Below are positions 10,566-33,570 of a stretch of 64,000 nt of DNA, piece after piece. Source of the stretch: Polytrichum commune (taxonomy: Eukaryota; Streptophyta; Polytrichopsida; Polytrichales; Polytrichaceae); the NCBI GenBank assembly GCA_950295325.1, contig OX485805.1, forward strand, positions 37,683,501 through 37,747,500. Direction: 5' to 3'. Position 1 is the first letter of the stretch. Every line of letters begins with the position of its first letter. The translations under genes and the position numbers were made by a program. Below the pieces are notes generated by a model. The model was given only the letters and a program-made list of their open reading frames with translations. It made no database searches and was not told where the DNA came from.

Positions 10566-11134
10566 TCGGTGGTCAAAATGTGATATAAGCCGCATCAATA
10601 TTTAATACTATATTCGTTAAATTGAGACTTTCTCTAGTCTCAAATTAATATATGGATCAAACAACATTCCGTGTTCCGAAACTATATTGCGAACAATCTC
10701 AAATATATTATATGTTCTAATATCCCAAATCTATTATGTGTGGACATAAGCACATATGGTAGAGCACTCAACACCAACCTCATCAACAAAAACACTTTGG
10801 GTAGAGCACTCCAAACTAGTTTCACCCAAGAAACATATAAAATGATTTCTATTATTAGCATGGTCAATAAAATATAGACATTGCAACATACAAAGTGCAT
10901 GCAATAAATGCATATTTCTTCAATGGAAAATTTAGTCCCAAATTTAATAAAAAAATGAACTTCACAATTGTATTGAAATATAGTAAATGGATATTCATCC
11001 AACCCCAAACAATATAGCATTCGCAAGTTCTACCCAAAATCTGCCCCAAGTTTGAGGAGCACACATATGAGTAATATATATTCGTCGAATTACTGTTTAC
11101 ACTATAATCATGCTAACACAATCCTACCAACTTC
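10566..11134. other. Intergenic, no gene seen
   Basis: AT-rich spacer between the gag-like fragment and the DUF7869-like gene. It holds two imperfect copies of a GGTAGAGCACTC motif (about 10759 and 10800), the second inside TTTGGGTAGAGCACTCCAAA, which resembles a decayed copy of the palindrome described further on. Confidence 0.35.
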
Positions 11135-14100
11135 TCATTCAACGTGGGTTGCTTCTTCTGCGATCCGAGCAAGGTTGTCTTTTGTAAAAGTTATGTACTT
11201 TTGAGGGATGGACACTGATCCACTATGATTTTTCCGTGGTTTCCATGCTATGAATATGGAATCTGTATCTACCCAAGATGGACCGTGCTCAGAATCCACC
11301 TTCCACCAAAAGTGTTGGTTTGTATCCCAGCCTGTATAATGCCGAACAACATCTTCATTCCGTGCTGTCGGTCGGTAGTACTCTACTTGTATTTGTCGAA
11401 AATGAGGGCTGGAAGATACAAAATTTGGATTGGACAAAGCTCTTGCCACCCACACTGGCTTTGCATATGTCTCATCTCCAGGACGCAAAATGAGCATATA
11501 ACCTTCATGACAATCCACTGCAATGCGGAAAGATGGTGGGGGACGTTGACTAGCAGGCCCAACGTAATGGTCGTCCATATCAAACTCCTCACGAACCTCT
11601 CCATTACTCAAAAGACTAGCCTCCGAAGCTTGTACATCGATACGAGTTTGTGGCCAAAATCTGTGCCTCAAAGTATGAGGGCTATCTTGGTGGAGGTCTG
11701 CCAAGGCCGCACGAACACGTGTCCAATAATGTATCCAACTCCCATAACGATGCCAACATGATCCGCCAACATCCGCTATCTTCAAACTCTCCCAATATTG
11801 AATGAAGCCTGATATACCTTTCAAAATATCCTCCAAATTCTTCATGGCTATTGGCTTGCAAGGCCTAGGCTCTCCATCTGGTAACATGGTCTTCCCATCC
11901 GCATCCACGCACCACACAAGGAGACCCTCTGGCGGGCTCCAGTCTTGTGTCGTGCACAACAACTTGTATTGCATGGTCGGGACACCATCGTCACGCATGT
12001 AGAACCGGAATTGTTGTGCCTTCGTATAGCCAATCAATCGATGAGCTCCGCTTCGAATATACGGTTCTATAAATGCCTTGAAGTCGGGAACCTCCTCGAT
12101 CATATGGGGGATGACGGGAACGTTCTCCAAATCCATGTACGACTTCATCAATAACGGGATTGTAGGAAAATCCTCCTCCCGCAACTTCATGCTCCACCGT
12201 CCAAAAGATGCATCAATATCGTCGTGCGTGTGGCCTACCAATAGGAAGGACACAAAAACCTCCTTGAAAATGCCTTTTGCAACCAACAACGACCAATATG
12301 CAAATACATATCTACTTTTATTGTCCTTGGCACAATTGTCCAATTGGACACGCAAAGTGGGGGACAACTTCTTGGCTATCACGGGTTCACTGGGTGGTTC
12401 GGGCAACGAATGCAAGCATACATCTTTTCCATCCATCACTGCTTCATATAAAGGTGTTGAACCCGTATTTTCAAATAACAATCCTGAAGAATAGGCTGGC
12501 AGTTTCTCTAAATCACGCAAAAGCCTTGCAAATGACCCTATCGTGTGGTTTGAATCTGCTGGATACAAATCAAGAGCATAATGGGCAAACTTGACATCAC
12601 CGTGTCCATGTGCAATCATTCCTACAATGCCAACCCAAAGTGATTAGTATCTATGTATGTCTAAATCGTTTTGAGTGAATCAATGTTCTCAAGTACATCA
12701 CATAATAAAATACAACAATATTTAGGGTATGTCAACATTGTTTCGAAGATCACCTGTAACCGATACAGGCAACTTAAAAAACCCATCCGTGGCCTTGATT
12801 CGTTTTGCAAAACATGGGGAGGCTGTCTTGGCATGGTCCATTTTGTCATGGATGACCGTAAGAACTTCCAAGGGCCTGGAGATGGACAACGCTCTATTTG
12901 TGTAGTAATCATTATGGTGTGCCTCTTGCATGTTTACGTGCTTGAAATAGTTCAATTGATGCACCGCAAACGACTCGGTACCCATCGTGTGTGCATCCCG
13001 AAGGCGCTTCAACTTCTCGCAATTAGAGCACCTTGCAAATTTGTCCCCTCGTCTTTTTGTAATGTATTCGCTGAAGTTTGCTTTCTTGATTGCACTCAAT
13101 TTTGACGATGAAATTGGCTCCAACCCAATCTTCTCCCCAACTGCATTTACATCCAACAATATGTCTTTCCATTTTGTGCCTGTGGGAAGAACTTTCTCCA
13201 CAACCTTTTCACCAGTTGTGAGTGTGCGTGTTTTGTGCGGCATTGCATCGGCAAGTGGGACAATTATGGTTGCTAGAGTGGCCGTTGCTTGCCTTGTTGC
13301 TTCCCTAGGTTTCTTTAAACCCACGTTCCCATGGTGACGGGACCAGCGGCCTTCCTTGGCATAAGCAGCTTGTCTATAAAAGTCCGCTTTCGACACACCA
13401 TGAATGGTGTACCATGCCTTGCAACACACGTCTATGCTCTCAATGGTGATGACCTTGCGACCCGCCCCATTCACATGTATCGCCCTATGCACATCAAGTT
13501 TTTTGGTGGATCTTAGACGGAAATCACCAAGCCACATTTCTTCGCGGATGGCCAACAATTTATCCCGGGGAAACAATTGGCAACAACGATGCACACAACA
13601 ATCCTTTGTGGCAACTTCTCTAATGGACTCCTCCCCGAGCAACCTTTGACGTTTACAATCAGTTGCAGACGGAGTAGGACGTGCCAATGTATCGTATTTT
13701 CTTTGACCCTTGGGTGGCCGCATGTTTGATTGCTGCTCTTTTTGGATTTGCAAGTGTCGTTGCTCATGTTCACACAAGGAAACACCATCAATCGTGACAT
13801 TCCTCAATGGCCACCTCCGGAGGGAGAACCTATGAGTGGGATCCACCTCGGAATGAACGAGCGACTCCAATATGACAACCCCAACGTCCTCGGTGCCAAG
13901 CGGGTTTTCATCAATGCAATCTTGTGGATGGGTGTTGCGACAAATCCCCTCCGCCACAACAACTCCACTGTCATTAAGAAGTACCACCTCCAAATTCACC
14001 CATGAAGCCCTTGAGAGTCCCGTACATTCAGCAATGGGACATTGTGGTACGAAGGCGAAGGTAAATCCAAATGATCTTCATCTGCACTGTCAGCCAAAGT

Positions 14101-14217
14101 ATCCTCCCCGACAATGTCTATCTCATCCTCAGATGCAGATGGCCAAGTGGCCATATCTTCAAATGACCAATCCCCTCTTTCACTAAACCCATTCATTCTG
14201 CCTACACACATGAACAT
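11135..14217 (-). CDS. DUF7869-like, probable transposon-derived protein
   Basis: Two minus-strand exons join cleanly. The exon ending at 12754 (CAG|GTGATC) joins the exon starting at 12621 (TAG|GA) in phase, giving about 910 codons from 13999 to the stop at 11135-11137. The upstream part has a cysteine-rich block (CCVHRCCQLFP), a block ending in CCKAWYTIHGVS and the IHDKMDHAKTA block. The downstream part has VQLDNCAKDNKSRY and LVGHTHDDID. I recall this set from a repetitive family (DUF7869) in algae, mosses and corals; the D-N and H-DDID pairs suggest an RNase H-like transposase, which is inference. The N-terminus is unclear: an acidic segment (14196-13996) beginning MNGFSERGDW lies in another frame just upstream, so an exon or a frameshift is missing. 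Local array repeats begin about 140 bases upstream. Confidence 0.6.
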
Positions 14218-14351
14218 TGAACCTTATCAAGAAACCACAAAATTGTAGATTCCAATCGAATAATACAAAAACCATCTTATATAAACAATATTGCAAATAC
14301 ACAGTGTTCATACATGTTCATATGAATGCTATGCCATTGGCTTTGTAAAGG

Positions 14352-15471
14352 TTTGGGTTGGCCAGTGGACACACTATCATTTAGAGCCCATCCACACGGT
14401 GGGTTTGGGTTTGGGTCGACCTACCCAAACCTTGTGGCACGATGGGATCATGGTCATCCAGACTCCATCCAAACAGTGGGGATAAATTGGGTCGAGCGAC
14501 CCAAACCTTTTCGCAAGATGGGTTCAGGCTCATAACAAAGAGCACCCACACAGTGGGGATGGATTGGGTAGACCGTCCCAAATTATGTAAGGGCAATGGG
14601 ATGTGTCAAACCTAGTACATGCCCACTGTGGGATAAGGTTTGGGTCGACCGACCCAAACCTTATAGGGCAGGATGGGCTCAAAGTCCACCCTAGTACATG
14701 CCTCACGTGGGGGTGGGTTTGGGTCGACCGACCCAAACCTTGAGGGGTAAGATGGACTCCGTGTCCACCCTAGTACCTGCCTCATGAGGGTATAGGTTTG
14801 GGTCGACCGACCCAAACCTTGAGGGGCAGGATGGACTCCGTGTCCACCCTAGTACCTGCCTCATGAGCGTATAGGTTTGGGTCGACCGACCCAAACCTTG
14901 AGGGCCTGGATGGGCTCCTTGTCCACTCTAGACCCTGCCTCACGAGGGGATAGGTTTGGGTCGACCGACCCAAACCTTGAGGGCCAGGATGGGTTCCTTG
15001 TCCACTCTAGACCCTGCCTCACGAGGGGATAGGTTTGGGTCGACCGACCCAAACCTTGAGGGCCAGGATGGGCTCCTTGTCCACTCTAGACCCTGCCTCA
15101 CGAGGGGATAGGTTTGGGTCGACCGACCCAAACTTTGAGGGGCAGGATGGACTCCGTGTCCACCCTAGTACCTGCCTCATGAGAGTAAAGGTTTGGGTCG
15201 ACCGACCCAAACCTTGAGGGGCAAGATGGACTCCGTGTCCACCATAGTACCTGCCTCAGGAGGGTATAGGTTTGGGTCGACCGACCCAAACCTTGAGGGC
15301 CAGGATGGGTTCCTTGTCCACTCTAGTACCTGCCTTACGAGGGGATAGGTTTGGATCAGGCTGAAATCGCCCACACTAGTGGAGGGGTTTGGGTCGACCG
15401 ACCCAAACCTGATCAGGGTCAGGCTGAAACCCGCCCACAGTAGCGGAGGGGTTTGGGTCGACCGACCCAAA
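14352..15471. repeat. Tandem array, 76-79 bp unit with 20-bp palindrome
   Basis: Palindrome starts are at 14410, 14486, 14563, 14639, 14718, 14797, 14876, 14955, 15034, 15113, 15192 and 15271, then 15388 and 15452. Nine of these (14639-15271) are spaced 79 bases apart; the left end is 76-77 and the last pair 64. Each unit carries TTTGGGTCGACCGACCCAAA, usually followed by a GAGG..CAGGATGG..TCC and a GTCCAC..CTAG..CCTGCCTCA segment. The outer copies at both ends are more mutated, as expected for an array homogenised in its middle. The unit length is not a multiple of three, so the staggered frames across it are not genes. Confidence 0.95.
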
Positions 15472-16157
15472 CCTGATAAGAGTCACGCTAAAACCCTCAA
15501 AATCCGGCGGATAATGCGGCGGATAATCCGTAATGTGTTGTTTTTAAGCTCATTGCAAAGTTCACGGTGGGCTTCCATGCTGTGGGTAGGTGCTCATGAA
15601 CTTGCATGCTGTGGATAAGTGCTAATGAACGGCAGCATGCACGAACCTTGAAGTATAGCTCCGACTAAGAGTTCTCTCTACGAATTCAAGAGTGGGAGAA
15701 GAGCAAAAAAGGACAGACTTTTGGGGGGTGCGTCCCTTTATACTATCCACCTCCGTTTCTCGGACTTCCTCATTGGATGCCTTTCCCGCCTTGTTCTCCT
15801 GCAGAGGTTATTTCAAACCTCCTGACATAATTCCCCGTTTTTTTTTTATAGTAGAAAATGCGCATCTTTCAATGCCCCTCTGATACCCCAGCCGTCATAT
15901 GACTTAGTCTATGATATTTTTTTATTTTTTTTTGTCTTGTGTGGATATGACATACGCCGTTGGGAGGAAGGGTGGCGGCCACATTAATTTTTTCAAGTGT
16001 CATGACGGTATATTTTAACAAATATTTTAACTCCATTCAATGCTTTCAAGTGTAAACCTATTTAGGTGGGGTTTGGGCCATTTGGAGGCTGCAATTATGA
16101 AAGGGTTTCCAAGGCTTGAGGCCATTGTCGTGATGAATAAAATTATTTATTTGTCTC

Positions 16158-16176
16158 CCCTAAACCCTAAACCCTA
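16158..16176 (-). repeat. Interstitial telomere-like repeat (CCCTAAA)n
   Basis: About 2.7 copies of CCCTAAA, the C-strand form of the plant telomere repeat TTTAGGG. Confidence 0.8.
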
Positions 16177-17732
16177 GAACATTGCTCTATTATCTCGCAT
16201 GCAAGTGTGGCAATGAGGAACGTATGTGGACGTTGTTAAAGGGATACTAACTACCAATGTCGTTTTTTAGTTCAATCTGTTAATGATATTTGAATCCATC
16301 TTGAAGTTCACTTCAAGTTTACTAATGTGTGGCCTTCGTGGCTCTTCGTGGCGCCAACCATCAAATGACATTGCTAATTCCGTGATGAAATAACTACACA
16401 AAATATGGGGTGTGTGTTTCATTATATTTAGTGTTGTTACCACCCTACTATGCTCAACATTAATTTTTAAATCTTTGACAATTACTGTTACACATAAATG
16501 TGTCGCTTACCTTCTACTTTCACGTATATTTTTTCTTTTCACATCCTTCCTAACACTAATTGCAAACATGTAAATTCCACATATTACCATAGATGATACT
16601 TATTGTGAGAGTTTACATTTTATGTCACTGACTTTCATATGGTTATTGATATTTAGTGCATGCGCTTGTATATAGGGTATCAAACACTAGATATCATATT
16701 TTGTGTAGTTGGGTTTAGGAGTTTAGTTCATAACATATTTAGAGTTTGATACACTAAATACGAACGCATCTACTCAATACTAATACCACTATGAAAGTAA
16801 GTAACATCAAACATTGTAAATTCAAACACTCAATATTATCTATGGTAATATGTTGAAGTTACATGTTTGAATATAGTGTTAGTAAGGATATGGAAAAAAA
16901 ATGATAAAGAAAGATCTCCAATATATCTTCCAATATCCTATAACAATATTTGTCAAAAAAATTAAAATTATTGTTGATGGGGGTAGACTGTCTCATTTTA
17001 TGTGCCTATGACATGCACCATTGGGAAGAAAATGATATTTGATAACTGATTTTGAGAACCCATCCTCCACAACTTCACATTGATGCATTGCATACAAATC
17101 AAATTATGTACTTCCAGGATATTACTCTACTTGGACTCAAATATTATGGTTTATTTCAAATAATATCTTGACAATATATGTGGCAACATTATGAAACTTC
17201 ATATAGCTGAAGCCACCAAATACAATTACAGTTTATGTCGTTATGAAGACTTTCACATGAGGACTTATACATTGAAAACAAGGAATTGATCTCATGACAA
17301 ATTTGAATAAATTGGCCAACTTTCAATTTGCAACAATAAAATGAGAAAAGCTTTAAAAGAACATGTGACGTTTGTAATGTGTGCACACAACGTTGATCCA
17401 TTGTCCAACATACAAGTGTGGCAATGGATAACCTATGTGAAAGGCATTAATGGGAATTCCATCACGAATAGGACTTTTTAGTTCACTCTTTCAAGGATGT
17501 TTGAAACTATCATGAAGTCCATTTGAAATCTAGTATGAAGATCATATATACTATAATCAAGTTATTATACTCTTCTTTTTAGACAGACATTGTTATAACT
17601 TAATATTGGTTGACATGATCGTGAGCACATATGATTAGGATGTTGTCAAGACAATATACATTTGTATTGGAAACTACAAGCACTAAGGCCCTGTCATTTA
17701 ACCTTATGTGCCATTCATTTAAGGCTTGCGGT

Positions 17733-17760
17733 GTTTAGGGTTTAGGGTTTAGGGTTTAGG
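17733..17760 (+). repeat. Interstitial telomere repeat (TTTAGGG)4
   Basis: Four consecutive copies of TTTAGGG (the last ending TTTAGGt), in the opposite orientation to the copy at 16158-16176. The motif supports a plant or green-algal host. Confidence 0.85.
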
Positions 17761-18289
17761 TTGGAGGGATCATCGAACATCAAGCTTAATGCTTACATGG
17801 CTTCATATGATGTTGAACTCCATGGGGTTGCAGTAGATAAATTTGTAATCTTTGTGTATCTCCCATGTACTTCAAATGTCAACTTCTATGTACTGATATA
17901 AATGTTGAATTTAATGCTACTTGGGTGGGTAATATCCATTGTAGGCTAGAGCCTTATCTTCTACGAACTTGGGTTATAGAAATTACAATAGAGAGCACTT
18001 AGTCTAAACCCTTGACCATGTAAATTGTCACCATATTTTAATTGTTGCACCGTGCAATTGCATTTGAGGATTGCAATATACTTATGAAATACTCCTCTTA
18101 GACTTTGTATCGCTCTCATCTTACTCCATATGACTACAATATTCAAATACTAAAACAAATAATGGATTCATTCTATGATGTAAGCAATTCCAACGCGGGA
18201 CCATTGAATTGAACACCATTAAAATCAGAGTTGGTGATGGTGTTAATTTTGTGCAATACCTTAGGCTATGTTGCTTTTCGATTTTTGGG

Positions 18290-18315
18290 CTAAGCCGCTA
18301 TAGATAGCGGCTTAG
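18290..18315. repeat. Perfect hairpin, 11-bp arms, 4-base loop
   Basis: CTAAGCCGCTA and its exact reverse complement TAGCGGCTTAG are separated by TAGA, at the left edge of a GC-rich island. The following sequence is G-rich, so it is not a simple terminator. Function unknown. Confidence 0.8.
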
Positions 18316-18660
18316 AAGGCCGGGGCCGGGCTTCGGCGGGCAGGAGGCCGGGTGGCCGCTAGGCGCCAAGTGTGCACCCCAGAAGCCTCAGGTAGCCACC
18401 ATCACCAATAAGGTGTTGACACATGGCAGGGTGGTTGCCCGCGAGGCTTGTGAGCCGTAGATGGGCTCGGGGCGCTCCCATGGCCCAGATTGGGTCCCAT
18501 GGCGACCCTTCGCTTTGTCTATTTAACTCCCTCCGTGCCAAGCTCCCTCCTTTCTCTCCCTCATTTCTCACCTTGTCGTGAAGCGGCGCCTCCGCCTAAC
18601 GCCGCTTCCCACATTCTCTCTCTCATTCCTTTCCACCTCTCTGATTCTTGTAACCCTCTT

Positions 18661-19120
18661 CTCTCATTCTCTCTTCTTCTTGTAAGGGTTTAGGAGTGAT
18701 TGTAGAGTGTGTTTACGGGTTGGGGAAGTGTTTTTGTGTAGAAATATGCGCATTGAGTGATTTCAGGGTGTGTATGTTGTTTAGGAGTGTTGTTTTGTTT
18801 AAAAATACAAGCATTGAGTGATTTCAGAGTGTGTTTGTTGGTTAGGACTGGAAGCGGCGCCTTTCGACTTACACTCATTCTCTCATTCTCTCATTCTCTC
18901 ATACTCTCATTCTCTCATTCTTCTCGCCGTCTCTCATTCTCTCTTCTTCTTGTAAGGGTTTAGGAGTGATTGTAGTAGGGTAGTGTTTTTGTGTAAAAGC
19001 ATCCGCATTGAATGATTTCATAGTGTGTTTGTTGTTTAGGAGTGTTGTTTTGTTTAAAAATACGAGCATTGAGTGATTTCAGAGTGTGTTTGTTGGTTAG
19101 GAGTGTGTTTTTGTTTTAAA
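18661..19120 (+). repeat. Direct duplication with a 270-bp period
   Basis: A block beginning CTCTCATTCTCTCTTCTTCT and running through TGTAAGGGTTTAGGAGTGAT occurs at 18661 and again at 18931. The following GCATTGA.TGATTTCA and GTGTTTGTTG..TAGGAGTG motifs are repeated several times in both copies. The CT-rich start resembles a plant transcription start or 5' leader, so the block may be a duplicated promoter/leader of the gene at 19.9 kb. Confidence 0.65.
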
Positions 19121-19496
19121 GTGCGCCCTTGTAGTGATTTCAGAGTGTTTTTGTTGTTTTGAAGTGTGTGTGAGTTGTTTGTGAAATCTAGTGAGTGGAA
19201 TTTTAGTGAATGTTAGTGATATCTGAGTGTTCAGGTGTAATCTGATTCTAAGAATCAGATTCGCAAAACCTATTCGCAAAACAGCATCAGATTGGCAGAG
19301 CTTGCATCAAGGTAACTTATCTCACTCAACATAACCTGCTTCTTAGCCTTTAGGGTCTTCATGCATATACAATGCATAAGCATTGTATATGCAGCGTAAA
19401 ACATTATGGGTGAATATTGAAACACTACGGTTTTGGTAGACGCCCGAAACCTCTATATAAAACCCCAAACCCATAAAGAATTAACTGGGCAGCTAG

Positions 19497-19913
19497 TTTG
19501 GGTCGCTCGACCGAAACTCTGCAGCTGGTTTGGGTCGAACGACCCAAACTCTGCAACCTATAAATCCAATATCCCAAAATAAACATCCTTCCCACCATCA
19601 ACAAGAAATTATATTCAAATGGCTATAATTTGAAATCGTCTGATATTTGTTGGCATGTCCACATACGTCCAGCGCGGCCCTAGAATGTCACCAAAAATTG
19701 CTCTCCTGTTGGATAATTTGACCACTACACAATATTCAATATATTCATATTCTTAAGACCCGAACTCTACCAATAATTCTTATACGATTAGGCTATTCGA
19801 GGCTTGGGTTTGGGTCGGTCGACCCAAACCTATTCATGATGGCCAGTAGAGCACCCTTCAATTTGCACTGATGTTCAATCCAAGTTGAAAAACTTTGGGT
19901 CGATCGACCTAAA
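19497..19913. repeat. Four dispersed copies of the 20-bp palindrome
   Basis: Copies lie at 19497-19516 (centre CT, one arm mismatch), 19529-19548 (centre AA), 19809-19828 (centre GT) and 19894-19913 (centre AT, one mismatch). All share the arms TTTGGGTCG and CGACCCAAA and precede the first recognised exon of the large gene. Confidence 0.9.
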
Positions 19914-21299
19914 CTAACAATTTTGTTTCTGGACTTACAGATGGCCACTAAAAAGAGACCTGGAGAGAGGTGGTTCATGCTCGCCCCAGACCACCTTTGG
20001 GAGGAGTACGAAACTCCACAGGACGACTCATACGTCCCAAAGGACGGGATCGTTCTTACGTGGTCCGTTCAGGTTGTGAAAGCCTCCCAGTACAAGCTCT
20101 TGTTCGTGGTGAAAGTGGGGACCCACGAGCAACACACCTGGGCAACGCTGACGGGATGGGAGGTTGCTTCCGTCCAAACTCTCGGGGAGCACGTTGACGT
20201 TATTCTAGAGAACTCTGCAGTGCAGAACGTGCATATGTTCATGCACCAATTCTCCGAGGCTTTCGACCCCCTATACGCCAAGGAGACGTGCGTTGACCCG
20301 GAGATAATAAAACCGGAGACCATCTTCATAGATGGCACTGTATCGAACACCAAGGTCGCTAGCAGGTTTACAAAACTGAAACAAGCGATCACGGTTTTGA
20401 ATAAAGCATTGCAAAGCAAACCAAAAACGCAACAGCCTGTCAGGCGGAAGGCCAAGACAGAAGAAAGAGCAGGTTCCTCCAGACCCCAATCTGTAAGGAT
20501 TCCGCTGGCGGTTCCGGCAGATTCTAGAAGACTGAGCACTACCTCGACTCCGGCTGACAGCGAGACGCCAACTCCTTCAGGAAGCCGGTGGACGACCCCG
20601 TCCGGAAGCCGGCAGACGACCCCGTCGAAAAGGGCAAGGGAGTCATCAGTCATGACCACCGAGCCAGTTTTGCCAGAGTTGCGGATGCCCAAGCCTGGTC
20701 AAGAGGTTGATGCTGGGGAAATTCAGAAAATCAACGACAATTTTGAGACGAAATGCCTCCATTGCTTCTTCATGGGCAGGGACTTCAAGTTCGAGGTGAA
20801 CATTGCACAATGTCACCTTGCGCCACCTGAAAAGTGTGTCCGAGCCAAGGAGGATGCCTATGTCGACTGGATGGTCGCTCAAATCTTGGGCGGGCAGTTC
20901 AAGGACGACAAGCAGACAATTGTCGTGATGCCCCAGGGGCTAAAAATAATGCCTACGGCTGATATGTGGCCGGCGATTTCTAAAGGAGATTTCTGGCTGA
21001 TTGACGGCCAGCACAGTGTCGAGGCCTCCAAAAAAATCCAGCTGATGACTGAATGGGACGACCCCAACAACTAGAAGGAGAAGCTGAAGGTATGGAAGGC
21101 ACTGGTGGTTTGGTCGGACAACGAGACCGTCCTCAGTGACATCTCCAGGTTTTTCAACATGGGAAATAAAAAGAGGGCGTATCAGGCATCCTGGATTAGG
21201 AATATAATGGCCTCGAGGGATGTGTGGGAGTTCTATGGCAGGCCTCCCAAGGAAAGGGAGAATGCAAAAGACAAGAACCCAAAATGGGAGGTGAGTAAG

Positions 21300-21547
21300 T
21301 TTGGGTCGATCGACCCATACTCTTGTATTGTTTTATTTTCTTCGCAAGTTTTGTAGTTTGGGTCGATCGACCCAAACTCTTGGATTGTCTTATAGTCTTC
21401 ATCAGTTTTAAAGTTTGGGTCGATCGACCCAAACTCTTAGATTGTCTTATAGTCTTCATCAGATTTAAAGTTTGGGTCGATCGACCCAAACTCTTAGATT
21501 GTCTTATAGTCTTCATCAGATTTAAAGTTTGGGTCGATCGACCCAAA
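21300..21547. repeat. Five palindromes at exact 57-bp period in an intron
   Basis: Palindromes start at 21300, 21357, 21414, 21471 and 21528, all with centre AT; the first has one arm mismatch. The array fills most of the 316-base intron 21291-21606 of the large gene. The unit between palindromes ends in variations of CTTATAGTCTTCATCAG. Confidence 0.95.
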
Positions 21548-22617
21548 CTGCTGTTCCATTTTTTCATGATGTGTTCTCTAACATATGTTCTTGACTTCAT
21601 GTACAGGACTTCAAATACCAGATGATCAATAAATTCTCCTCTATTGACAACGCTAGCCACAAGCAAAAAAAATATAACGAGCTAAGAGGAGAAATCTATT
21701 TGATCACAGCGTCCGACTCCGTGTGGACAAAATGGAAGACTGTCTTCGAAAAACACGAGACGGGAGACTTCATCGATTCCGACACCGGCATTTTGTACAA
21801 CCAGACTACGCGCTTCAAGCAAATGAAGCCACTGGTGAGGGAGTTCTTCAGAGTTCTTCAAGATCTCTCGGAGACAGAGGTGGGAAAGGCGGCGTCCCAC
21901 ATCCTCCACATGCAGCCGACGGCGAAGAGATGCTGGGTTCACCCGAAGATCGTCTTCACGAAGCCTAAGATGTTCGTCCCTTCATGCTACACCTTGAAGG
22001 AATGGACGAAGAACAGGAAGAAAAAGACGACCATCGTCCAAGAGCTGCACAAGCTGGTGCCCGAGAAGAAGCTCATCGTGGACGGAGAGGTTGACGAGGC
22101 GCACTGGAGGGTATTCAAAGCCGAGAACAAGTTCACCAGTGCGTCCATGGCGGCACTCATGAGGGAGGCGGGAGACGACTTCCTCAGGTCCAAGTTCGTG
22201 AAGGGTGGGAGGAACCGGGCGCTTCCCGAACACTCCGCGCGTGCCTTCTCCAACTTTATAAAGGAGAAGAAGATCGTCAGGTTCGAGGGCGAAGCTCACT
22301 TCAACTTGGTCTCCCTCGAGCCTTTAAAGATCCAAGGTTGGCCGGGCTCTGATGCTAGGAAGGCGATCATGACTGCAGCCGGGGACCGCTTCCCCTTCGG
22401 AATGATAGACTTCAGGAACATTCCTGGAGCGTCATTCGAGGGGACAATGAGCACCCCGTTTTACGAGCCGTTCTTCACCAAGTTCGTGGACTACGCCAGC
22501 CCCAAATTCAGGGAGGTCGACGTCTGGTTTTGGATTGTCGAGGACAGGAGGGCGGAGCAGGTGTACGAGATCGTGCGTAAATTGCAACCAGAGTACGCCG
22601 TCTCAAAATCTCATTAC

Positions 22618-24021
22618 CAGGGTTGTCTATTGTGTCGTGACGGAGGGTAATCCCGGCATAATGTCGTGCTGTCACGACACGTATCCGTCACGACATTATG
22701 CCGGATGCTGTCTTTATCCTGACGGACTTGAATTTTACCGATTTTTTTGTGTAATTACATTAACCCAATTCAGACACGTAGGATTTACAATGTCCACGTG
22801 TGATGACATGTCAGCAAAGTAAAGGTAAAGTGGGGAAAAATTTACTAGAGCCCGTCCGCCCCCCCGTCCACCCCTCCGTCCGCTCCCCCGTCCGCCCCAG
22901 TTTTTTTCTTTTTCTTTCCCCCCCCCCTTCCCCGTCCGCCCCATTTTTTTAAAAAAAATTCCCCCCCCTCCGTCCGCTCCCGTTCCCCCCCGTCCGCCCC
23001 TCCGTCCGCTCCCCCGTCCGCCCCAGTTTTTTTTTTTTTTTAATTTTTTTAATAAATTTATTTTCCCTTCCCCGTCCGCCCCATTTTTTTTAAAAAAAAT
23101 TTCCCCCCCCTCCGTCCGCTCCCGTTCCCCCCCGTCCGCCCCGTTCCCAACCCCGTCCGCCCCGTTCCCCCCCGTCCGCACCCCGTTCCCCCCCCCGTCC
23201 GCGCCCCGTTCCCCCCCGTCCGCCCCAGTTTTTTTTTTTTTCCCCCCCCCCCCCCCTTTTCCCGTCCGCCCCATTTTTTTAAAAAAAAATTCCCCCCCCC
23301 TCCGTCCGCTCCCGTTCCCCCCCGTCCGCCCCCTTCTCGACCCCGTCCGCCCCGTTCCCGACCCCATCCGCCCCGTTCCCGACCGTTCCCGACCGTTCCC
23401 GACCCCGTCCGCCCCGTTCCCCCCCCGTCCGCGCCCCGTTCCCCCCCCCCGTCTGCGCCCCGTTCCCCCCCGTCCGCCCCTCCGTCCGCCCCATTTTTTT
23501 TAAAAAAATTCCCCCCCCCCTCCGTCCGCTCCCGTTCCCCCCCGTCCGCCCCGTTCCCAACCCCGTCCGCCCCGTTCCCCCCCGTCCGCGCCCCGTTCCC
23601 CCCCCCGTCCGCCCCCATTCCCGACTCCGTCCGCTCCGTTCCCCCCCCCCCGTCCGCTCCGTTCCCGCCCCCGTTCCCGACCCCGTCCGCTCCGTTCCCC
23701 CCCCCACCCCCGTCCGCCCCACCCTCGTCCCCCGTCCGCCCCACACCCTCCTTAGTCGTTTTTTACTACTTTGATTTTAACAAAATGGTAAACAAAATGG
23801 CAAAATGATTTACCTGGCGCTAGGCATATCCACGACCACGTCGGCGTTTTCTGCCACATAGGACGCCACCTTGGCAAGAAGGTAAGTATTTTACCCACCC
23901 TAGTCCGTTCCCCCTATGTTGACCCTACGTGGACCCTATTGTGTCGTGACGGAGGGGTCCGTCACGACACGACACGACATGACGGCACGACACCGTCATG
24001 ACGTCGCGATAGACAACCCTG
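22618..24021. mobile_element. hAT-like non-autonomous transposon, 8-bp TSD
   Basis: The insert is 1404 bases long, starts CAGGGTTGTCTAT and ends ATAGACAACCCTG, a perfect 13-bp inverted repeat. It is flanked by identical 8-bp copies of CTCATTAC at 22610-22617 and 24022-24029. Removing it and one duplicate restores the exon's frame. An 8-bp duplication with CAGGG ends is characteristic of hAT elements. Subterminal copies of TGTCGTGACGG in both orientations crowd both ends, as in hAT transposase-binding regions. No transposase is encoded. Confidence 0.9.
22850..23745. repeat. C-rich minisatellite inside the hAT-like element
   Basis: About 900 bases of irregular repeats of CCCCGTCCGCCCC and CCCGTTCCC with short T and A runs. 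The plus strand is extremely rich in C and poor in G outside the CG of the motif. Long glycine/arginine/threonine-rich frames on the minus strand are by-products of this repeat. Confidence 0.9.
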
Positions 24022-24384
24022 CTCATTACGTTGCTGCACCGGCGGAGGGGGCGTACAGCTCATTGAAAGACAAGAAGACGAAGATAGTCTGTGTGCTGTG
24101 CTTGTACTTCGTGTACAAAGCTGAGCTGCTGAAGGTGCCAAACCATCCTATAGCCCGGATGGAAAAGCTTTTCCAAGTCCCAGAAGGGTTGGGCACCAGC
24201 AGAAGCTTGTACGACGAGGCGAAGTACGCCAACTACCCCGCGGATGAGCTGCGGATGGATTTTTACCTGCGGATGATGAGGACCCTCACGAAGAGGGGGG
24301 ACTTCATCTTCAACGTCTTCGGGGGCTCCAAACCGGTTTTTGCAGCAATGGTAAGAAACTAACCTCGTGGATGTATATGCCTGG

Positions 24385-24439
24385 TTTGGGTCGAGCGACC
24401 CAAACTAGGGCATGCACAGTTTGGGTCGAGCGACCCAAA
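24385..24439. repeat. Two palindromes in an intron (centre AG)
   Basis: Copies at 24385-24404 and 24420-24439, 35 bases apart, in the intron 24351-24520 of the large gene. Both have centre AG. The outer pair is G..T in the first and A..T in the second. Confidence 0.9.
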
Positions 24440-25642
24440 CTAACTATTATTATTTTTTTGGGTGTCATTTTTCCTTATTCTTCATTGGTGATACTAATAC
24501 TATTGATTTGGATTGTGTAGATGTCTGGGTTGAACATCTACTCCTATGTGGAGGATACCGATGTTCAATTCTACAGGACCCAGAAGGCGCTGGCGAAGAG
24601 AATGGACATCCTCGACTGGATACCCGGATCCTACGTCGAAGAGATCGTCGAGGGGGGCGAGAATCCTTTGGATATGGCGAGGCGAATCAACCCGGGTGAA
24701 TTCGCCATGCGCGCCCCCGTTCAATTGCCAGAACCGCTCATCGGGTTGCATCCGGGCAATCCGTCTATGGGAGCAGGTGGTGAGGTTGCGGAGGAGGGGG
24801 AGGAAGAGGAGGATGAGGAGGAAGCAGAGAAAGTGGAGGGGGAGGTCGAGGAAGGGGCAACAGGATTCACTCAAGAATCCGAGGCCCCTCAGCGGAAGAA
24901 GGCCATGCGAGCTGCCACGCCGCAGAGCAAGCTAGTGCCCGTCCTCACGGTGGCCGACGCGAAGGACATGTATTCGAGGGATGCGACGGCCACCTTCAGG
25001 GAGCGGCGAATGTTGAAGGGGAAGAAATTATACAGCGATTATGTGGTGGAGGAGACGATCGCCATAAGCTCCGAGGACGAGGACGACATGGAGCTCGCGA
25101 AGAGGCTGAGGTCGGATCCTGCCTCCCCCACAGCGTTCGCCGGGATGGTGAGGGTGAAACCCGAGGTCCTCACCGTGGAGGAGGCCAATGCGAAGATGCT
25201 CCGGGACGAGGAGCAACGCGTCCGATTGCAAAAGGCCGCCGCCGAGGAGCCCTCGGTCCGCAACGAAGTCGCGGAGTTGAGGGCTCTCCTGTTGGAGCAG
25301 GAGCGGCAAAGGGCGATGGCCCCACCTCCGTCCCAAGCGGACCTGATCACGCAAGTGATCCAGGGCATGCTGGCGCAGGGATTGGTGATGGCTCCCTCGA
25401 GTTCATTCCCTCACTTGCCCGCAGGCTTCCCTCCACAGGATATCCGCCCGCGGCCGGCGCCGCAGCAGTCCTTCAGTTTCGCGCACTTGCTGCAGCCGCA
25501 CGCCCGCCCTTACGCGCCCGTCCAGCAGGTGGACGACCCCAACCTTTGGCGCGTCCCCGGAGCTTCCAGCTCGTTGGCACCCCCGCCGCTCCGGCCTCCC
25601 ATCCTCTCGCCCCCACAACACCAGCGGGACGACCCCCACATG

Positions 25643-25731
25643 TTTGGGTCGTCCGACCCAAACAGTGCCCACGTTGCAGCGTCCCAGAGCGACGCTCGCC
25701 AAGCAGCAGGGTTTGGGTCGGCCGACCCAAA
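25643..25731. repeat. Two palindromes inside coding exon C
   Basis: Copies at 25643-25662 (centre TC, outer pair T..A) and 25712-25731 (centre GC, outer pair G..C). Both are read through in the coding frame as FGSSDPN and FGSADPN. They lie 69 bases apart, a multiple of three, in the proline-rich part of exon C. Confidence 0.9.
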
Positions 25732-26009
25732 CCCCGTCCCCGACCAGACCCCGGTGGACGAGCCCATGTTAGATGTTGAAGGCCCGCAAGGGCCTGGTGA
25801 TACCTCTACTCCTAACCCAGTCGATGAACCAATGCATGATGCGCATGCGGAGGTTGGGTTGGGACAAAGGCCTGACAGTCAGCCTTTGCAGGAGCAGGTT
25901 GCGGCTGACGTCGGAGGCGGCGGTGACAGAGGTGGGGCAACGCACGCGATGCCGGCATCAACGTCGTCGAGGCACGACCAAGGCGAGGTAATGCACTGAC
26001 CCCACTCAG

Positions 26010-26029
26010 TTTGGGTCGGTCGACCCAAA
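26010..26029. repeat. Palindrome copy in intron C-D (centre GT)
   Basis: One perfect copy just downstream of the splice donor at 25988, outer pair A..T. Confidence 0.9.
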
Positions 26030-27331
26030 CTCCCTGGGTCTTTGTCTTCTTGCCTTGGTCGTGTCCCCTACCTACCCTAAACTCACGCACACGTCTCCCC
26101 CCCCCCCCGGCACTCGCGCCCTTCGCCACATCCCCCCGACCATTCGTTCGTCCACATACCCCCCGGCTTGCGACGAAGTCTTCATCACGGCGGCCCGTCT
26201 CTTCAAATTTTGATAGATGTAGATTTAGGCTAGTTTGAACGCATCGTTCAACGCGGCTCCCCCCAATCAAGATGTACATAGAGCATTGTATACAATATAA
26301 TCACCATTTTTTACTCCTATATACTCGTATCCTGTGTTTGAATGTATGTTGTATGCTCTTGCCTCTCTTGTGTCCCTTGTTGCACCCCCTCCAAAATGAA
26401 TCAAATGGTTTTGTGTTTGCACCGAGGACACTCGTTTCTTTAATGCTTCGTTTGGACATAGCATGACATAAGTCGCCCACCGTTTTCTCTCGATCGTATC
26501 CGCAGGGCTCGGAGCATAGCGTAGCGGCTCCCCGACGCTCTTCTCCAAGGAGCAGAGAGGGCAGCGCGGCGGCGCCCCTGATTTTACCCGCCCCGCCCCC
26601 GCGGCCGAAGAAACGATTCCTGGTGTTAGACCTGAACGGGGTCCTCGTCCAATGCGTTCATTGCCCGAGGACCCCCACGGTGCCTTTTTGCAAGCCCGAG
26701 GACGCGAATTACGACGGCCCGCCCACGTTCATAAAGAGCAAGCTAGTTCACCTCCGCCCGTGGCTTCGGACCTTCCTCCAGATGGCCCAACAACGATGGT
26801 GGGTGGTCGTTTGGAGCTCCATGACGGCCGAGAACACCAATGCCGTCGTGGAGTTCATCTTCAAGGGCATCGAGCCCCCCTGCATGGTCCTAGCACAGGA
26901 AGCCTGTAGAATATTGTACACACCGGACGGCAAAGTCGTCAAAAAACCAAACAACCCCGCTTCCCCCCAATACCTCAAGGTCTTGAAGCCCATTTTTTGG
27001 GACCAACGGCCGTCCTTGATAGGCGTCCCCTACGACGTCCGTCCCACCCGCGAGAACACGCTCATGGTGGACGACAGCGCCGCAAAGAACATGTTGAACC
27101 CGACGGCCAACCTCATAGTTTGCCCTACCTGGACGGTCGAGAAGGTCCGGGACCGATTTTTGTTAGACCTTGGTAAATACCTCTAGGCGCTCTGCGGAAG
27201 CGGACTGCCCGTAAACAATTTTGTTAGGAACAATCCGATAGGCGAGAGATACTTGGATCCACGAGACCATTTGTACAGAGAGTTGTTATCTCACGCGAAA
27301 TTTAACAAGCTCATTTGAGACACTACGTGTG

Positions 27332-27390
27332 TTTGTATGTGTATGTATGTATGTGTGTGTGTGTGTGTGTGTGTGTGGGCGCGCGCGCGC
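27332..27390. repeat. (GT)n then (GC)n alternating tract
   Basis: Nearly continuous alternating purine-pyrimidine sequence: GTATGTGTATG, a long GT run, then GGGCGCGCGCGCGC. It lies in the intron after the FCP1-like domain and has the composition that favours Z-DNA. Confidence 0.9.
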
Positions 27391-28404
27391 CCTTTCATTT
27401 TGTGTAGTATATGCTTCATATGTATCTTGATTTTCACGCGCTCTATCAAACCCTCCTCCCTTGGGTTTTGTTTCGTTTCCTTTTTTACGCCAGCGTTTGG
27501 AGCCCTCGATTGACATCGTCAGCGAGTCGGACTTGGGGAGCTTCTTCTACGAGACCGTCTACGACGCCGCGTCGACCATTGACTACTCCAAGGAGCCTCT
27601 TGACGCCGGCGTCGTCGATAGCCCCCCACCCAAGCAAATCTTCCGGCGATCTGCGTCCCCGTCGCCGCTCAAGGGCATAAATCGCAAATGCGTCCGGACA
27701 TCCCCCTCTCGGCCTGGCGGCAGTAGTACACCTCAACGGCGGCTGCGGATGGACGCTCGGCCAACGAAGAGTGGAACCCTTCCTATTCCTTTGCGGGACG
27801 CATTGCCCCTCCTCGCCGACTCCAACGGGAACGCCCCCGGTGACAAGGTGAACCCCCCCCCCCCCTAAACATGGTTATCCGCGCATTACAATCATCCAGC
27901 ACTTAAAAAATGAACGTGTGACACGTTTGGGTCTTCCTCCCTAAACTAACACGTGTGCTCTTGCATTCACGCGTTGCAAGTTGCTCCCACCCGTAGACCA
28001 ATGCGGGCTAGTGCGTCCGTCGAGTTGGAGCGTTTCTACTCCATGACCAGAAATGCAAGACAGTCCACTTCATCGTATTCGAATTCTTCGTCGTATAATT
28101 CGGGCGGCCGACGGAATCCAAAATGTGTTATAGAGGGCGGTCAACCCAAAAATGGCTATAGTCGCGGGGCGGAGATTTTCAGGAATGTTGAAGCAATGCG
28201 AGCAAAAGAAGCCGCAGCAAAAGAAAAAAAAGCAAAAGAAAAAAAAGCAAATGAGATAGAGGCAGTCTCCGAGGCTAGATAGGCCATAGTAGGCGTAGGG
28301 TTTTGGACCATAGGCAATATGATTTTGGGTCGCACTATCCAATGGATGTGTGGTGTTAGCATGCTATGCATTTTACGTGCCATACTTTGTTTTTTTTTTG
28401 TTTT

Positions 28405-28745
28405 TTTTGCAATAATATAAGTGTCACATGATTTTGCCTTCAATATGGTCTAAGGTTTGGAGTGCCTTATTGTGTGCATTAATATGAATGTTTTAAGATT
28501 TCCCCTTCAATAAGATCTATGGTTTGGAGTGCCCTACCTAAACCATACATTACAAGCTCTCATATTTTGTGTGCATTAATATGAATGTTTCAAGATTTTC
28601 CCTTCAATAAGATCTATGGTTTGGATTGCCCTACCTAAACCATATTCATACAAGCTCTCATATTTTGTGTGCATTAATATGAATGTTTTAAGATGTCCCC
28701 TTCAATTTGGTCTAAGGTTTCGATTGCCCACCCTAAACCATCACA
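28405..28745 (+). repeat. Tandem repeat of 97-98 bp, about 3.3 copies
   Basis: Units start at ATGAATGTTT at 28484, 28581 and 28679, with a partial copy before. Each contains an imperfect palindrome GGTTTGGAGTGCCCTACCTAAACC-like segment split around GTGCCC, followed by CTCATATTTTGTGTGCATTAAT. Confidence 0.85.
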
Positions 28746-29529
28746 AATATGAGTTATTAATGGGGTTCTTGGTCTAAACACCTGCTTCAAAGTGTTCGCA
28801 TCTTACAACTTTCACCAATATGTGTTCCATTTATCCTTGTTCTTATTTCTATGAATGTCTCAAAATGCCCAAAAAGTCTCAATTTAACGAATATAGTGTT
28901 ATTTGCTCGACGTCACATCCTTAGGCGTAAAATAACGAGCAAATCAAAACCTCTCATGCTACGCCGAAAAGTATAAATAAAAATACCTTCAATACAATTA
29001 TAAAAGGTGTCCATAATTAGATATAATAGGCGCATTTTTTGCAAGTTTGAACGAGTTCATTCGGCTCAAAGTGTAAGAGAGAAAAAATCTCCCCACAACA
29101 ATGATGAAATTATTTGACTTCGTAATCCGTTTGGAGAATGCGAGGAAGTTAGGAAGCTGATCACGCCAAAAAATCAAATCAAACGGCCAGAAATAGTCGA
29201 CATGAAAGATGTGAATAAAAAATAATTATGCTTCAAGTGAGGCAAGGCCGGCAATATTATATGAGAATATCGCAAAAATGCGAATAGAGGTGGGAAGACA
29301 AAATTGATATTTATCATGATTGTACCATCGAAAATACAAATTGAAAAGTATAACGTCACTTTGGTCAAAAAAAATATTTAACTATAAGCGGTGGTACTAA
29401 GTGTTTGAAAACTTAAGTCTAAGATTACATGTAGTTGAAGGTGGCTTTGACTCTATGTTCTCTTTGATAAACCTAAGCAGAAAGTGATCGATTCTTAAAA
29501 AAAAGTCAAGTAATGAAACTAACGTAACT
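28746..29529. other. Intergenic, no gene seen
   Basis: AT-rich sequence without recognisable coding potential, repeats or RNA genes. Confidence 0.4.
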
Positions 29530-30392: not shown

Positions 30393-30545
30393 CCCTGTGC
30401 GTTAACGCACGAGGTCTATGTGCCCAGTTGGAGGCCTAGCAAAGTTGCGCGCATAGACCTTGTACGCTAATGCACAGGGTTTGTTCGTCTGGCTACATGT
30501 GGTTTGAAAGTTTCCAGCGCCGACCCTATGCGTTAACTTACAGGA
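30393..30545. repeat. Second palindrome family, three copies
   Basis: Copies of a 22-bp palindrome made of CCCTGTGCGTT and its reverse complement start at 30393, 30458 and 30524 (65-66 bp spacing), each with a few mismatches. The interval between the first two carries inverted GGTCTATG / CATAGACC flanks. Confidence 0.8.
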
Positions 30546-30962
30546 TTAATATCATTTTTTTATTTTTTTTAAATCTGGATTTAGTAGATTTGCCAAAACT
30601 TGTAAAATCTATAAATAATACAAATCATGTCCATATATATATATATTTGTATATTATCTAAATTTCCATAGCTACAATATTTTCTTTGAAATCATTTCTC
30701 TTATTCATTCTTCTATGTATTTCATTGTTTTTGGCCACCTCGTATATTTTAAGTTTGCGGGCACAAAAAAATTTCCTACTGTTTCTTATGATTTTCTAGC
30801 CCTGTCACGTATTGTATCAATATTTTAGCACACACATTCCTCATTTTCTGCATTCTAACCTCATTTTCGCCAAATTTCTTGCTCCAACCTTCCATACGTC
30901 GTTTCAAATTCATACAATAGGTATTTTTTTTACTTCTCGGCTCTTCAAGTCGTTGGCACATA

Positions 30963-31305
30963 CCCTGTGTGTTAACGCACAGGGTTTTCCCTCCTAACTT
31001 TCAAGCTCACTTACTTGCCACCACATACATTATACATCAATGTACAGGGTTCTCACCTAATTTATAAGCTTTCGAAGTCGTTGTCATATACATTGTGCGT
31101 CAACGCAAAAGGTTTTTTATTTTAATTTATAACTCTCCAAGTCGTTGTCATATACCATGTATGTTAACGCACAGGGCATGTGGTAGCGACTTAGAGAAGT
31201 TATAAGTTAGAATGAAAAACCCTGTGCGTTGACGTATAGGGTTTTCCCTCCTAACTTTTAAGCTCTTTTATCCGTCCCATTTACCATGTGCGTTAACGCA
31301 CATGG
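30963..31305. repeat. Second palindrome family, six copies at 64 bp
   Basis: Copies start at 30963, 31028, 31091, 31155, 31220 and 31284 (spacing 63-65). The one at 30963 has a single mismatch. The last reads CCATGTGCGTT plus its perfect complement, so the C-to-A change in one arm is matched in the other. Around 31100-31240 the spacer flips orientation, producing a long imperfect hairpin centred on the copy at 31155. Confidence 0.85.
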
Positions 31306-32619
31306 TTCACTTCAGTAACATTTTCATTTTAAACCGTTCAACAATTTGTACTTAAACGTAAATGTTATATTCTACCTCATCTTCATTCAATGTACTATCA
31401 AATTATATGATAGTGAAGCTAACTTACTTTTTTGTTTGTTCTGTTTTTTTAACTCGTCTTCATTTCCGACTCTGATATACGATCATCTGCATGCTCTTTG
31501 CTCTTTGCACCTTCATCATCCTCCATCGCCAATATCGATATTGTATCAAAATCCAGTGTCTTCACAATTTCTTCTATTATATTCAAAATGATATTTTTCC
31601 CTTCCCTACTTGCATTCTTCTTTCCTACACTCAGTCTGAACCTCTCTTTCTTAGAAGTAAAATACAAAGCTTTCCTACGTCTTCTCTTCCGCCTCACTAG
31701 TGTTCTCTCTACATTCTCCACCATCATTGGTATTTATGATATGTCCTCTACCACTTCACTTTCATACATTCTTCTAGTGTTTATATTTCACATAAACTTG
31801 GCGCATATTACGATCATCCGTGTTATAATTGGCATCTAATGACCAAGTTATTTCAATGCATCTTTCATTCTACTTCTATTTTATTATATCCACCAAATTT
31901 TCTCTGATATCCCAACCTTCCACATCCACTTCTTTCTATTCATAATGGCCAATTATTTACTTTCCCGGCCAAATTTAATTGTTCATGCATCTACATCCAG
32001 CCTACATAGTCACATTTTAAAAGTTAAAACTCTGCCAACTTATTTACAATTGGACGTCGTTTTTTCTATGATATCCGTACCCGCATTTTTCCCATGTGGT
32101 AATCTTATATTACACAACTCCTTTATGGGTTCGAATTTCCTATGGCTTAGTTTCTAAAGGAGGTATTTTTTCGAATCTAGTTTAGGATTCTATGCTTACT
32201 TGCAAATATTCCCTTACTACTATTATGATTTGTCTCCTTCTGTATTATTAGATACTATGGTATTACATGTTTTCATTTCCATTCATTATTATATTATACA
32301 TCACCCAATACAAAAGCAACATTGATCCAATATTATTGTGATGTGTTGTTCATCTATTTCTTGTTCTCCATGGCTATCATTAGAACTCATTGATCTTTTG
32401 TTCCTTTCATTTTGCCACTTCAAGATGATGGTCATGTGGATGTCTCGGAGGATTTGCTTAGTTTGAGATTCAACCTCTAGATAGGAATCATGTATTTAGA
32501 ACAGAAGATGTACTATGCAGATGGAGAGGTGTATGAAATGATTTTGGTTTAGAAAAACAAAACTGAAGTTGATTTTATGTGGATCTTAGAACCTGGTTCA
32601 TTTAGGATGATAGGTCGTT
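31306..32619. other. AT-rich, no gene supported
   Basis: Pyrimidine-rich AT sequence. The overlapping frames at 31346-31839 look like composition artefacts. The part just before 32620 may be decayed gypsy pol but shows no motif I can name. Confidence 0.4.
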
Positions 32620-33570
32620 ATGAGTCTCAGATGCAAGCTTCAACTGTCAATTGTCATAGTATACCGATTGAATAAGTGGACAGCGTTCGAATTTTGTGCA
32701 AAGCAAGCTACGGTAGAAGAGGTGGAACAATTATTCTTTAACAATAGGATGCGGCATAAAGGATTCTTGTGGGACATAGCGAGCGATCACTGTTATTATT
32801 TCAAATGCAATTTAGACAATACATAATGCGATGTACGGGGCGCGACTCTCAATGACAACAGCTAGGCATCTGCAAGGGATCGGCTTAACCGAAAGAAATA
32901 ATTTTATCTTTAATATGTATGTGAAAGTATTTTGTAAAAATGATCAACAAGAGTGGTCCACATTAATACATCCTACCAAACTTTATTACAACACAACAAT
33001 GTCTAAGACAACCAAGATTACACTATATTTTTGTGTTGTAAACAAGAGACTGTGTTGGCTAGCAACTTATTTGTTGGTCAAAGCGAATTAACGTGTAATG
33101 AAAAAAAGTTGTCGGGATATTACACACTAGATACGGTACAATAAGTTGCGCAGTGGTAAATGATCCTCTAGAACGCTAAGACACTGATGACAAAGGCTTA
33201 AAACTGTTACACTCACGCGGTTATTAAAAAACGGCGTAAAAAAACATTTCAAATGGGAGAGAAAGTTTAGTTGGACTTAAGGAACTTAGAGATACCCATG
33301 AAGTTATCCATTAAGTGGTCCGCAAGGTAAATTGGACCGTTGCCGGTGAAAAAAAATTCTTCATCTAGACCTATACGGAATTGATTTGGACAAGAAAGTT
33401 GGTAGAATTGGCATCCGGTGTTCTTCATCTCTGTATTCATGAAGTATCACCACAACGAGAAGGATTTGCATTTGTGGCAAAAGAACTCGTGGCCACCATT
33501 CGAGTACGACTTGTGGGATGGCGCGGAGGATAAAATCACAGCGATTCACGACAAATACATGGACGAGGTA
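32620..33570 (+). pseudogene. Ty3/gypsy integrase remnant
   Basis: Three consecutive blocks match plant Ty3/gypsy integrase in order. The first is a core block (CAKQATVEEVEQLFFNN, then the DIASD position, 32680-32790). The second is the GLTERNN..FNMYVKVF / QQEWSTLI / YNTTMSKTT block (32860-33030), corresponding to the usual QTER..N..L..Y and AYN.T..ST positions. The third is a C-terminal block (FQMGEKV..LDLRNLEIP / RWIGPLPV, about 33247-33345, then HPVFFISVFMKYHH, about 33415-33450) typical of the region before the chromodomain. Stops and frameshifts separate the blocks. LTRs were not located. Confidence 0.75.

Follow-up and report, generated by a model that had tools for sequence, protein, structure and literature searches.

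A transposon that carries a repeated palindrome

The window analysed here, 64,000 nucleotides of the genome of the moss Polytrichum commune (contig OX485805.1, positions 37,683,501 to 37,747,500), contains a DNA transposon of 18,297 bp (10604..28900) that holds all 28 copies of a palindrome, P1, together with a transposase-like gene and an accessory gene, ORF2. The edges of the transposon at 10,604 and 28,900 are sharp and, by alignment, common to three other P1-rich copies (A, B and C). Either end bears the terminal inverted repeat (TIR) AACACTATATTCGTTAAATTGAGACTTT, 28 bp long, with the left end in the window reading AATACT... The window copy is flanked by the 4-bp target duplication ATTT (10600-10603 and 28901-28904) and copies A, B and C each have one of their own (AAGT, CCTT and TTAT, read by eye), such that all four copies read possess the TIRs and target-site duplication of a TIR DNA transposon. 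Genome-wide, the TIR is matched at two or fewer mismatches 589+595 times, equivalent to roughly 590 elements. The transposase-like gene is of the DUF7869 type and lies on the minus strand in two blocks of open reading frame (11135..14077); PF25273 is matched in 11135-12643 (E=1.8e-41), and no profile matches the block 12722-14077. There are 150 scored DUF7869 matches in the moss genome and none in 14 control genomes. At C1:42393157-42397936 the TIRs are found 4.8 kb apart, likely a short non-autonomous derivative.

Conservation and symmetry of P1

P1 was defined from an alignment of 282 copies from 17 sequences (286 were aligned and 4 left out as subterminal relatives; some near-duplicates are among the 282) as a 22-bp conserved block, G-TTTGGGTCG-NN-CGACCCAAA-C, with information per position of about zero from two bases outside the block. 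At three or fewer mismatches the window has 29 matches, compared to a mean of 0.04 and a maximum of 1 in shuffles. Consistent with the original observation of at least 28 palindromes at 14.4-26.0 kb, 28 of these lie within 14,410-26,029, and 22 of the 28 are exact; the remaining match, at 28,324, is a degenerate relative close to the right end of the transposon, and the rest of the window has no match at this threshold. The 408-Mb genome contains 9,731 exact sites, with none for a reversed-pattern control, and 13,295 sites at two or fewer mismatches of the 22-mer. Among the first 100 exact sites listed, transposon copies A, B and C account for 81, and the other 19 are at the Mutator-like or PM loci described below. 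The refuting possibility that one larger repeat unit explains all copies is borne out to the extent that 81 of 100 sites belong to one transposon family, and fails in that spacers and array periods vary.

The arms had been described as near-invariant, with a fixed adjacent G..C pair, and this description holds: both arms are intact in 208 of the 282 copies, the G..C pair is kept in 261, and arm mutation is not random. All eight centre dinucleotides named for the window are found there, but the centre is not free, as had been supposed, because pyrimidine-purine steps occur in 38 of the 9,731 exact sites (0.4%), exclusively as CA/TG, with TA and CG absent. In the alignment of 282 copies, where loci differ in orientation, the tallies of centres and their reverse complements are AC 53 and GT 34, CT 55 and AG 23, and TT 28 and AA 25. 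A protein dimer bending DNA at the dyad could impose the near-exclusion of pyrimidine-purine centres by indirect readout. Uniformity of the centre within an array, claimed for the window, breaks down in other copies, for instance in copy C, where AC and GT alternate.

The outer pair of P1 covaries, with complementary bases in 48 of 76 flank clusters compared to 26.7 in shuffles (0 of 5,000 shuffles reached 48), confirming the predicted excess of complementary pairs, and the next pair outwards shows no covariation (21 vs 20.0 in shuffles). Because shared descent from founder sites could also give such covariation, it is not taken as proof of pairing. Changes within the arms of the 282 copies are one-sided in 88 instances, two-sided and complementary in none, and two-sided and non-complementary in one, and the only symmetric change found is a shortening by one base in each arm at site L013:4371. 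Although the outer pair covaries, the one-sidedness of the arm changes fits a protein site better than a hairpin, and of the two possibilities originally offered, hairpin or dimeric protein site, it is the latter that is favoured. Helical phasing of the sites was set aside by inspection, with array periods spanning 32 to 79 bp, and CpG content was uninformative.

Placement of P1 in and around ORF2

The largest group of P1 sites in the window is an array of 14 between divergent genes (14410..15471), with periods of 76-79 and then 64 bp. Three further sites (19497..19828) are upstream of ORF2, an accessory gene of three exons on the plus strand (19941..25999; splice sites assigned by eye) that is transcribed away from the DUF7869 gene and contains a DGQHS motif. 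The exons are 19941-21290, 21607-22617 plus 24022-24350, and 24521-25999. Right before the ORF2 start is a P1 variant (19894..19913) that reads CGACCTAAA in the window copy and is the one-sided variant CGACCGAAA in 10 of the 11 copies shown, that is, in all but the window's. Within the gene, an array of five sites occupies intron 1 (21300..21547), two sites are in intron 2 (24385..24439), and two are in frame in exon 3 (25643..25731, plus strand), where they encode F-G-S-x-D-P-N; one more site follows immediately after the stop codon (26010..26029).

Better-preserved ORF2 copies retain P1 at the same places as the window copy, and the decayed loci L012, L015 and L016 have just 1 to 4 sites in the 8 kb read. 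Each of the eight further ORF2 loci has one or more P1-like sites, with array period, spacer and centre varying, and the spacers of several arrays are unrelated when compared by eye. Homologous P1 places persist across diverged subfamilies despite changes in period, spacer and centre. The possibility that each ORF2 subfamily has a distinct palindrome was considered and rejected, as no other repeated palindrome with 8-bp arms occurs in 8 kb at the eight further loci.

Of 1,106 ORF2 candidates, 95 were scored. In the copies read, full-length matches to exon 1 vary in identity between 77% and 100%, and the exon 1 protein is 100% identical in 9 of 96 among the matches listed, which indicates that the transposon family was recently active. 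The ORF2 of the window is itself disrupted twice, by an in-frame TAG at 21072-21074 and, in exon 2, by an insertion of 1,404 bp. This insertion (22618-24021) is hAT-like, judged by its terminal CAGGGTTGTCTAT repeats and an 8-bp target duplication, CTCATTAC; its interior is C-rich and repetitive.

Codon comparison of exon 3

The two in-frame sites of exon 3 were compared over 57 codons in seven copies, with the near-duplicates C, L014 and L018 excluded. All 252 pairs compared at the 12 complete arm codons are identical, while outside the arms 185 of 543 same-residue codon pairs have a synonymous difference, and the centre codon changes its amino acid in 30 of 42 pairs; the third base of the centre codon is an arm base, and it is altered at both sites in copy L017. 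Counted by column, 12 of 12 arm columns are codon-invariant, compared to 4 of 14 residue-invariant columns outside the arms (Fisher P=0.0002). Because the arm codons are invariant while the outside synonymous sites and the centre vary, the constraint is on DNA and not on the peptide, and selection on the exon 3 sites acts at the DNA level.

A second carrier, the PM gene and palindrome P2

P1 is also carried by a Mutator-like element, with arrays in its promoter region and inside an intron of its transposase gene. The label Mutator-like comes from reading the protein by eye and from a SWIM-type zinc finger that Pfam matches weakly (E=0.076, below the cut-off). PM, an accessory gene oriented divergently from the transposase gene, contains a methylase-like region and, by eye, the motif DGNHR. 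With unjoined open reading frames, three PM copies match PF01555 below its curated cut-off of 26.7 bits (L043, 22.0 bits, E=1.7e-4; L034, 16.5 bits, E=0.0086; copy X, 15.2 bits, E=0.021), and all three align to the same profile positions. Joining the exons by eye raises L034 to 38.9 bits (E=1.2e-9), with copy X at 24.3 bits and copy Y and L030 at 20.8 bits; the PM pieces of L032, L025 and L033 have no PF01555 match. A search of PM copy X did not find the catalytic motif [DNS]PP[YFW], and at the DPPY place other PM pieces show DLPEG, DIPEN or DIPES (by eye). Apart from PF01555, comparison of PM with Pfam, NCBIfam and PDB sequences yielded chance matches only, and 45 pattern matches in bacterial and archaeal genomes included no confirmed relative.

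A second palindrome, P2 (CCTGTGCGTTAACGCACAGG, 490 exact sites), is arrayed between the transposase gene and PM. The 50 listed sites of the 490 fall into 11 clusters, 10 of which are upstream of a scored PM gene at a distance of up to 6 kb, where about 0.002 per cluster would be expected by chance. P1 occurs at the Mutator-like or PM loci at C1:438k, 462k, 475-478k, 2154-2159k and 3440-3494k, with exact P2 at all except 438k, so that single elements combine both palindrome systems. In the window, a decayed Mutator-like relative is found at 30394-34000, with degenerate P2 palindromes at 30394-31304.

PM paralogues and their palindromes

Of 1,084 PM candidates, 150 were scored, and eight paralogues at 42-50% identity were picked. 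P1 and P2 (at three or fewer mismatches) are present in none of these eight loci, 5.5 kb of each being read, and four of the eight have repeated perfect palindromes of other kinds, in three families. P3, GGCATCTCGGATCCGAGATGCC, is common to L030 and L031; P4, AGGGGTTTCGGTACCGAAACCCCT, forms a 136-bp array at L033; and P5, GTGTCTCGGTCCCGAGACAC, forms a 244-bp array at L035 and has 253+205 sites in the genome. Elsewhere, L032 and L036 have one short palindrome in common, CAACATGTTACATGTTG, an imperfect palindrome was recognised by eye in a 94-bp array at L034, and L037 combines a decayed array with a single perfect palindrome of 16 bp. Roughly 0.4 palindromes of the scanned kind are expected per locus by chance, and hence single palindromes mean little.

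Of the 16 P4 clusters, 4 are upstream of a scored PM gene, 3 of these being independent of motif discovery; for P3 the figures are 3 of 19, with 1 independent. The chance expectation is about 0.002 per cluster. As most PM candidates were unscored, these shares are lower bounds. One further P5 cluster (L043) has PM-type exons alongside. Judged by position, palindrome identity appears to follow protein identity among the PM loci where this was tested, and the finding of related transposon proteins beside different palindromes suggests that transposons may mark and recognise themselves in this manner. The carrier transposon, the second type of P1-bearing transposon and the pairing of palindrome with protein go beyond what had been described for the window.

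Beside the P3 palindromes, L031:244-497 (reversed) has a second palindrome array, TATTGGCGG..CCGCCAATA, with a 64-65-bp period. In the stretches L038-L033 and L040-L034, DUF7869-type open reading frames are found within a few kb of PM genes; some DUF7869 elements may carry PM in place of ORF2, or the two may be nested neighbours.

Comparison with known systems

The TNPA protein of Spm/CACTA elements has many repeated subterminal sites within one transposon, and P1 is similar in being repeated within one transposon with P1-like sites also near the ends; it differs in being mostly internal, in introns and an exon, and in the termini and target duplication of its carrier. In ParB-parS partition systems the sites are palindromic and similar in length to P1, and a DGxHR-like motif is seen by eye in PM, with DGQHS in ORF2. 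Unlike parS, P1 consists of many sites in a eukaryotic transposon, and a scan of ORF2 and PM pieces gave no match to the ParB family at E<=5. Rickettsial palindromic elements place palindromes in frame within coding regions, as does P1 in exon 3, but the moss unit is a 22-bp site in a transposon under DNA-level constraint. A literature search of titles and the beginnings of abstracts, with subscription papers and preprints outside its scope, found neither such a palindrome family nor a transposon with a ParB or methylase protein, and no paper on DUF7869.

A closer likeness is to the VANDAL elements of Arabidopsis. VANC proteins target introns as well as intergenic and upstream regions, where their sites stand in tandem repeats that diverge quickly from one related copy to the next (PMC5735166), and paralogous VANC proteins act on different VANDAL families (PMC5735166, PMC10398659). 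The moss element shares with these a transposon with an accessory gene, a motif specific to the family that is found in introns, between genes and upstream, and tandem repeats of the motif that vary between copies, as seen for P1; paralogous proteins with different motifs are also found, by position, for the PM paralogues only and not for ORF2. There are also differences. The moss palindromes are 22 bp, compared to the 9-bp VANC motif, and PM is methylase-like while VANC has DUF1985/DUF287, the proteins being unrelated by Pfam (PMC5735166); no Pfam match to DUF1985/DUF287 was found in the ORF2 and PM pieces scanned. Moreover, the P1 site set is common to two transposon types. Binding has been demonstrated for VANC (PMC5735166), whereas for P1 it is predicted.

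P1 as a candidate self-recognition site

We have high confidence that P1 serves a transposon as a recognition site at the DNA level, and a protein of the transposon probably binds it; that the effect of binding is anti-silencing, a proposal drawn from VANC, is evenly balanced. Because the layout of P1 is like that of VANC targets in VANDAL elements, P1 is taken as the self-recognition site of an accessory protein, and by this analogy we lean slightly towards a predicted dimer-type site with an anti-silencing or activating role. The accessory protein, most likely ORF2 in the window element, would bind P1 copies in promoters, introns and untranslated regions, and would thereby recognise its own family and keep it accessible and expressed, as VANC does in VANDAL elements; the identity of ORF2 as the binder, its dimerisation and the anti-silencing outcome are all inferred. 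Other accessory genes, such as PM with its degenerate methylase-like region, would be matched with other palindromes, and the Mutator-like element, which has its own P2 plus P1, perhaps exploits ORF2.

A broader proposal, which we regard as tentative and rather doubtful, is that of a transferable self-recognition module, in which a DNA-methylase-derived accessory protein that lost its catalytic motif is matched with a long palindrome in promoters and introns. Diversification of paralogues and palindromes would have given at least five such pairs, P1 to P5, which would also have been swapped between transposon types, with some elements exploiting a neighbour's protein. Under such a scheme the protein may load at the palindromes, spread along the DNA and exclude the host silencing machinery.

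A number of observations weigh against self-recognition by an ORF2 protein or against the matching of protein and palindrome. ORF2 has no detectable family, as Pfam, NCBIfam, PHROGs and PDB sequences yield chance matches only, and AlphaFold models built on shallow alignments, one for the exon 1 domain and one for exon 2, are poor (predicted local distance difference test, pLDDT, 45 and 36) and were not used. PF01555 does not match ORF2, and [DNS]PP[YFW] is absent by search from ORF2 copy A. Since P1 is common to all ORF2 subfamilies read, they offer no co-variation of protein and site for comparison, and independent half-sites do not explain the covariation of the outer pair. Within the first 3.9 Mb of C1, P1 is present in each of the five copies that have P2, and consequently PM could be the P1 binder. 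Homology between ORF2 and PM is weak: hhalign gave E=0.015 over 21 columns (DGxH) and E=0.094 over 50 columns (methylase motif I), the latter inside the shuffled range, with the two matches in the expected order, and one earlier comparison gave nothing, making the relationship suggestive only. Half of the PM loci (4/8) are without a repeated perfect palindrome, 16 of 19 P3 and 12 of 16 P4 clusters are not upstream of a scored PM gene (a shortfall that the limited number of scored PM candidates may explain), one P3 cluster (C4:58.56 Mb) lies downstream of a Mutator-type PM, and among the listed P5 clusters a scored PM gene is found only at the discovery locus.

A rival candidate for the binder of P1 is a host transcription factor, with several transposon types having convergently recruited the site as an enhancer and the accessory genes being incidental. 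The occurrence of P1 in two types of transposon whose spacers are unrelated and the unproven homology of ORF2 and PM are both consistent with this scenario, which we nonetheless consider unlikely, as a single factor does not predict different palindromes at the same upstream place of PM paralogues, and P1 is retained within a coding exon too. Somewhat more improbable is that P1 sites are bound by the transposase for transposition itself, in the manner of TNPA sites in Spm. P1-like sites near both transposon ends do have the outer bases of P1, but true P1 sites keep a distance of at least 3.8 kb to the left end and 2.9 kb to the right end, clustering in introns and promoters.

Selection on pairing in a hairpin or cruciform, of RNA or single-stranded DNA, would account for the covarying outer pair, for the perfect inverted repeats and for the symmetric shortening at L013:4371. 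It is made very improbable by the excess of one-sided over compensated arm changes, the conserved one-armed variant that precedes the ORF2 start, and the lack of covariation at the next pair out. It is harder still to credit that P1 has no function and that its copies are alike because the transposon is young, with recent tandem duplication and gene conversion; the identical exon 1 proteins do indicate recent activity, but spacers and synonymous sites have diverged while the arms have not, and the codon comparison disfavours this explanation.

If binding is confirmed, P1 and its protein would represent a second transposon self-recognition system of the VANC type, unrelated to VANC. One genome would then contain several protein-site pairs, with one site set common to two transposon types, such that one could directly test how specificity evolves and how transposons cheat on one another, and new long, highly specific DNA-binding pairs would be available.

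Other features of the element and window

In addition to the DUF7869 gene and ORF2, the transposon carries a NIF/CTD-phosphatase-like gene on the plus strand (26467..27186; PF03031, E=5.7e-14). Near its left end is a subterminal P1-like site, TTTGGGTAGAGCACTCCAAA (10796..10815), and near its right end are 98-bp repeats with sites related to P1 (28470..28741). At both places the outer bases of P1 are kept and the inner bases differ, and these are possibly P1-related transposase sites. The window also contains TTTAGGG-like repeats, which are presumably in keeping with a plant origin.

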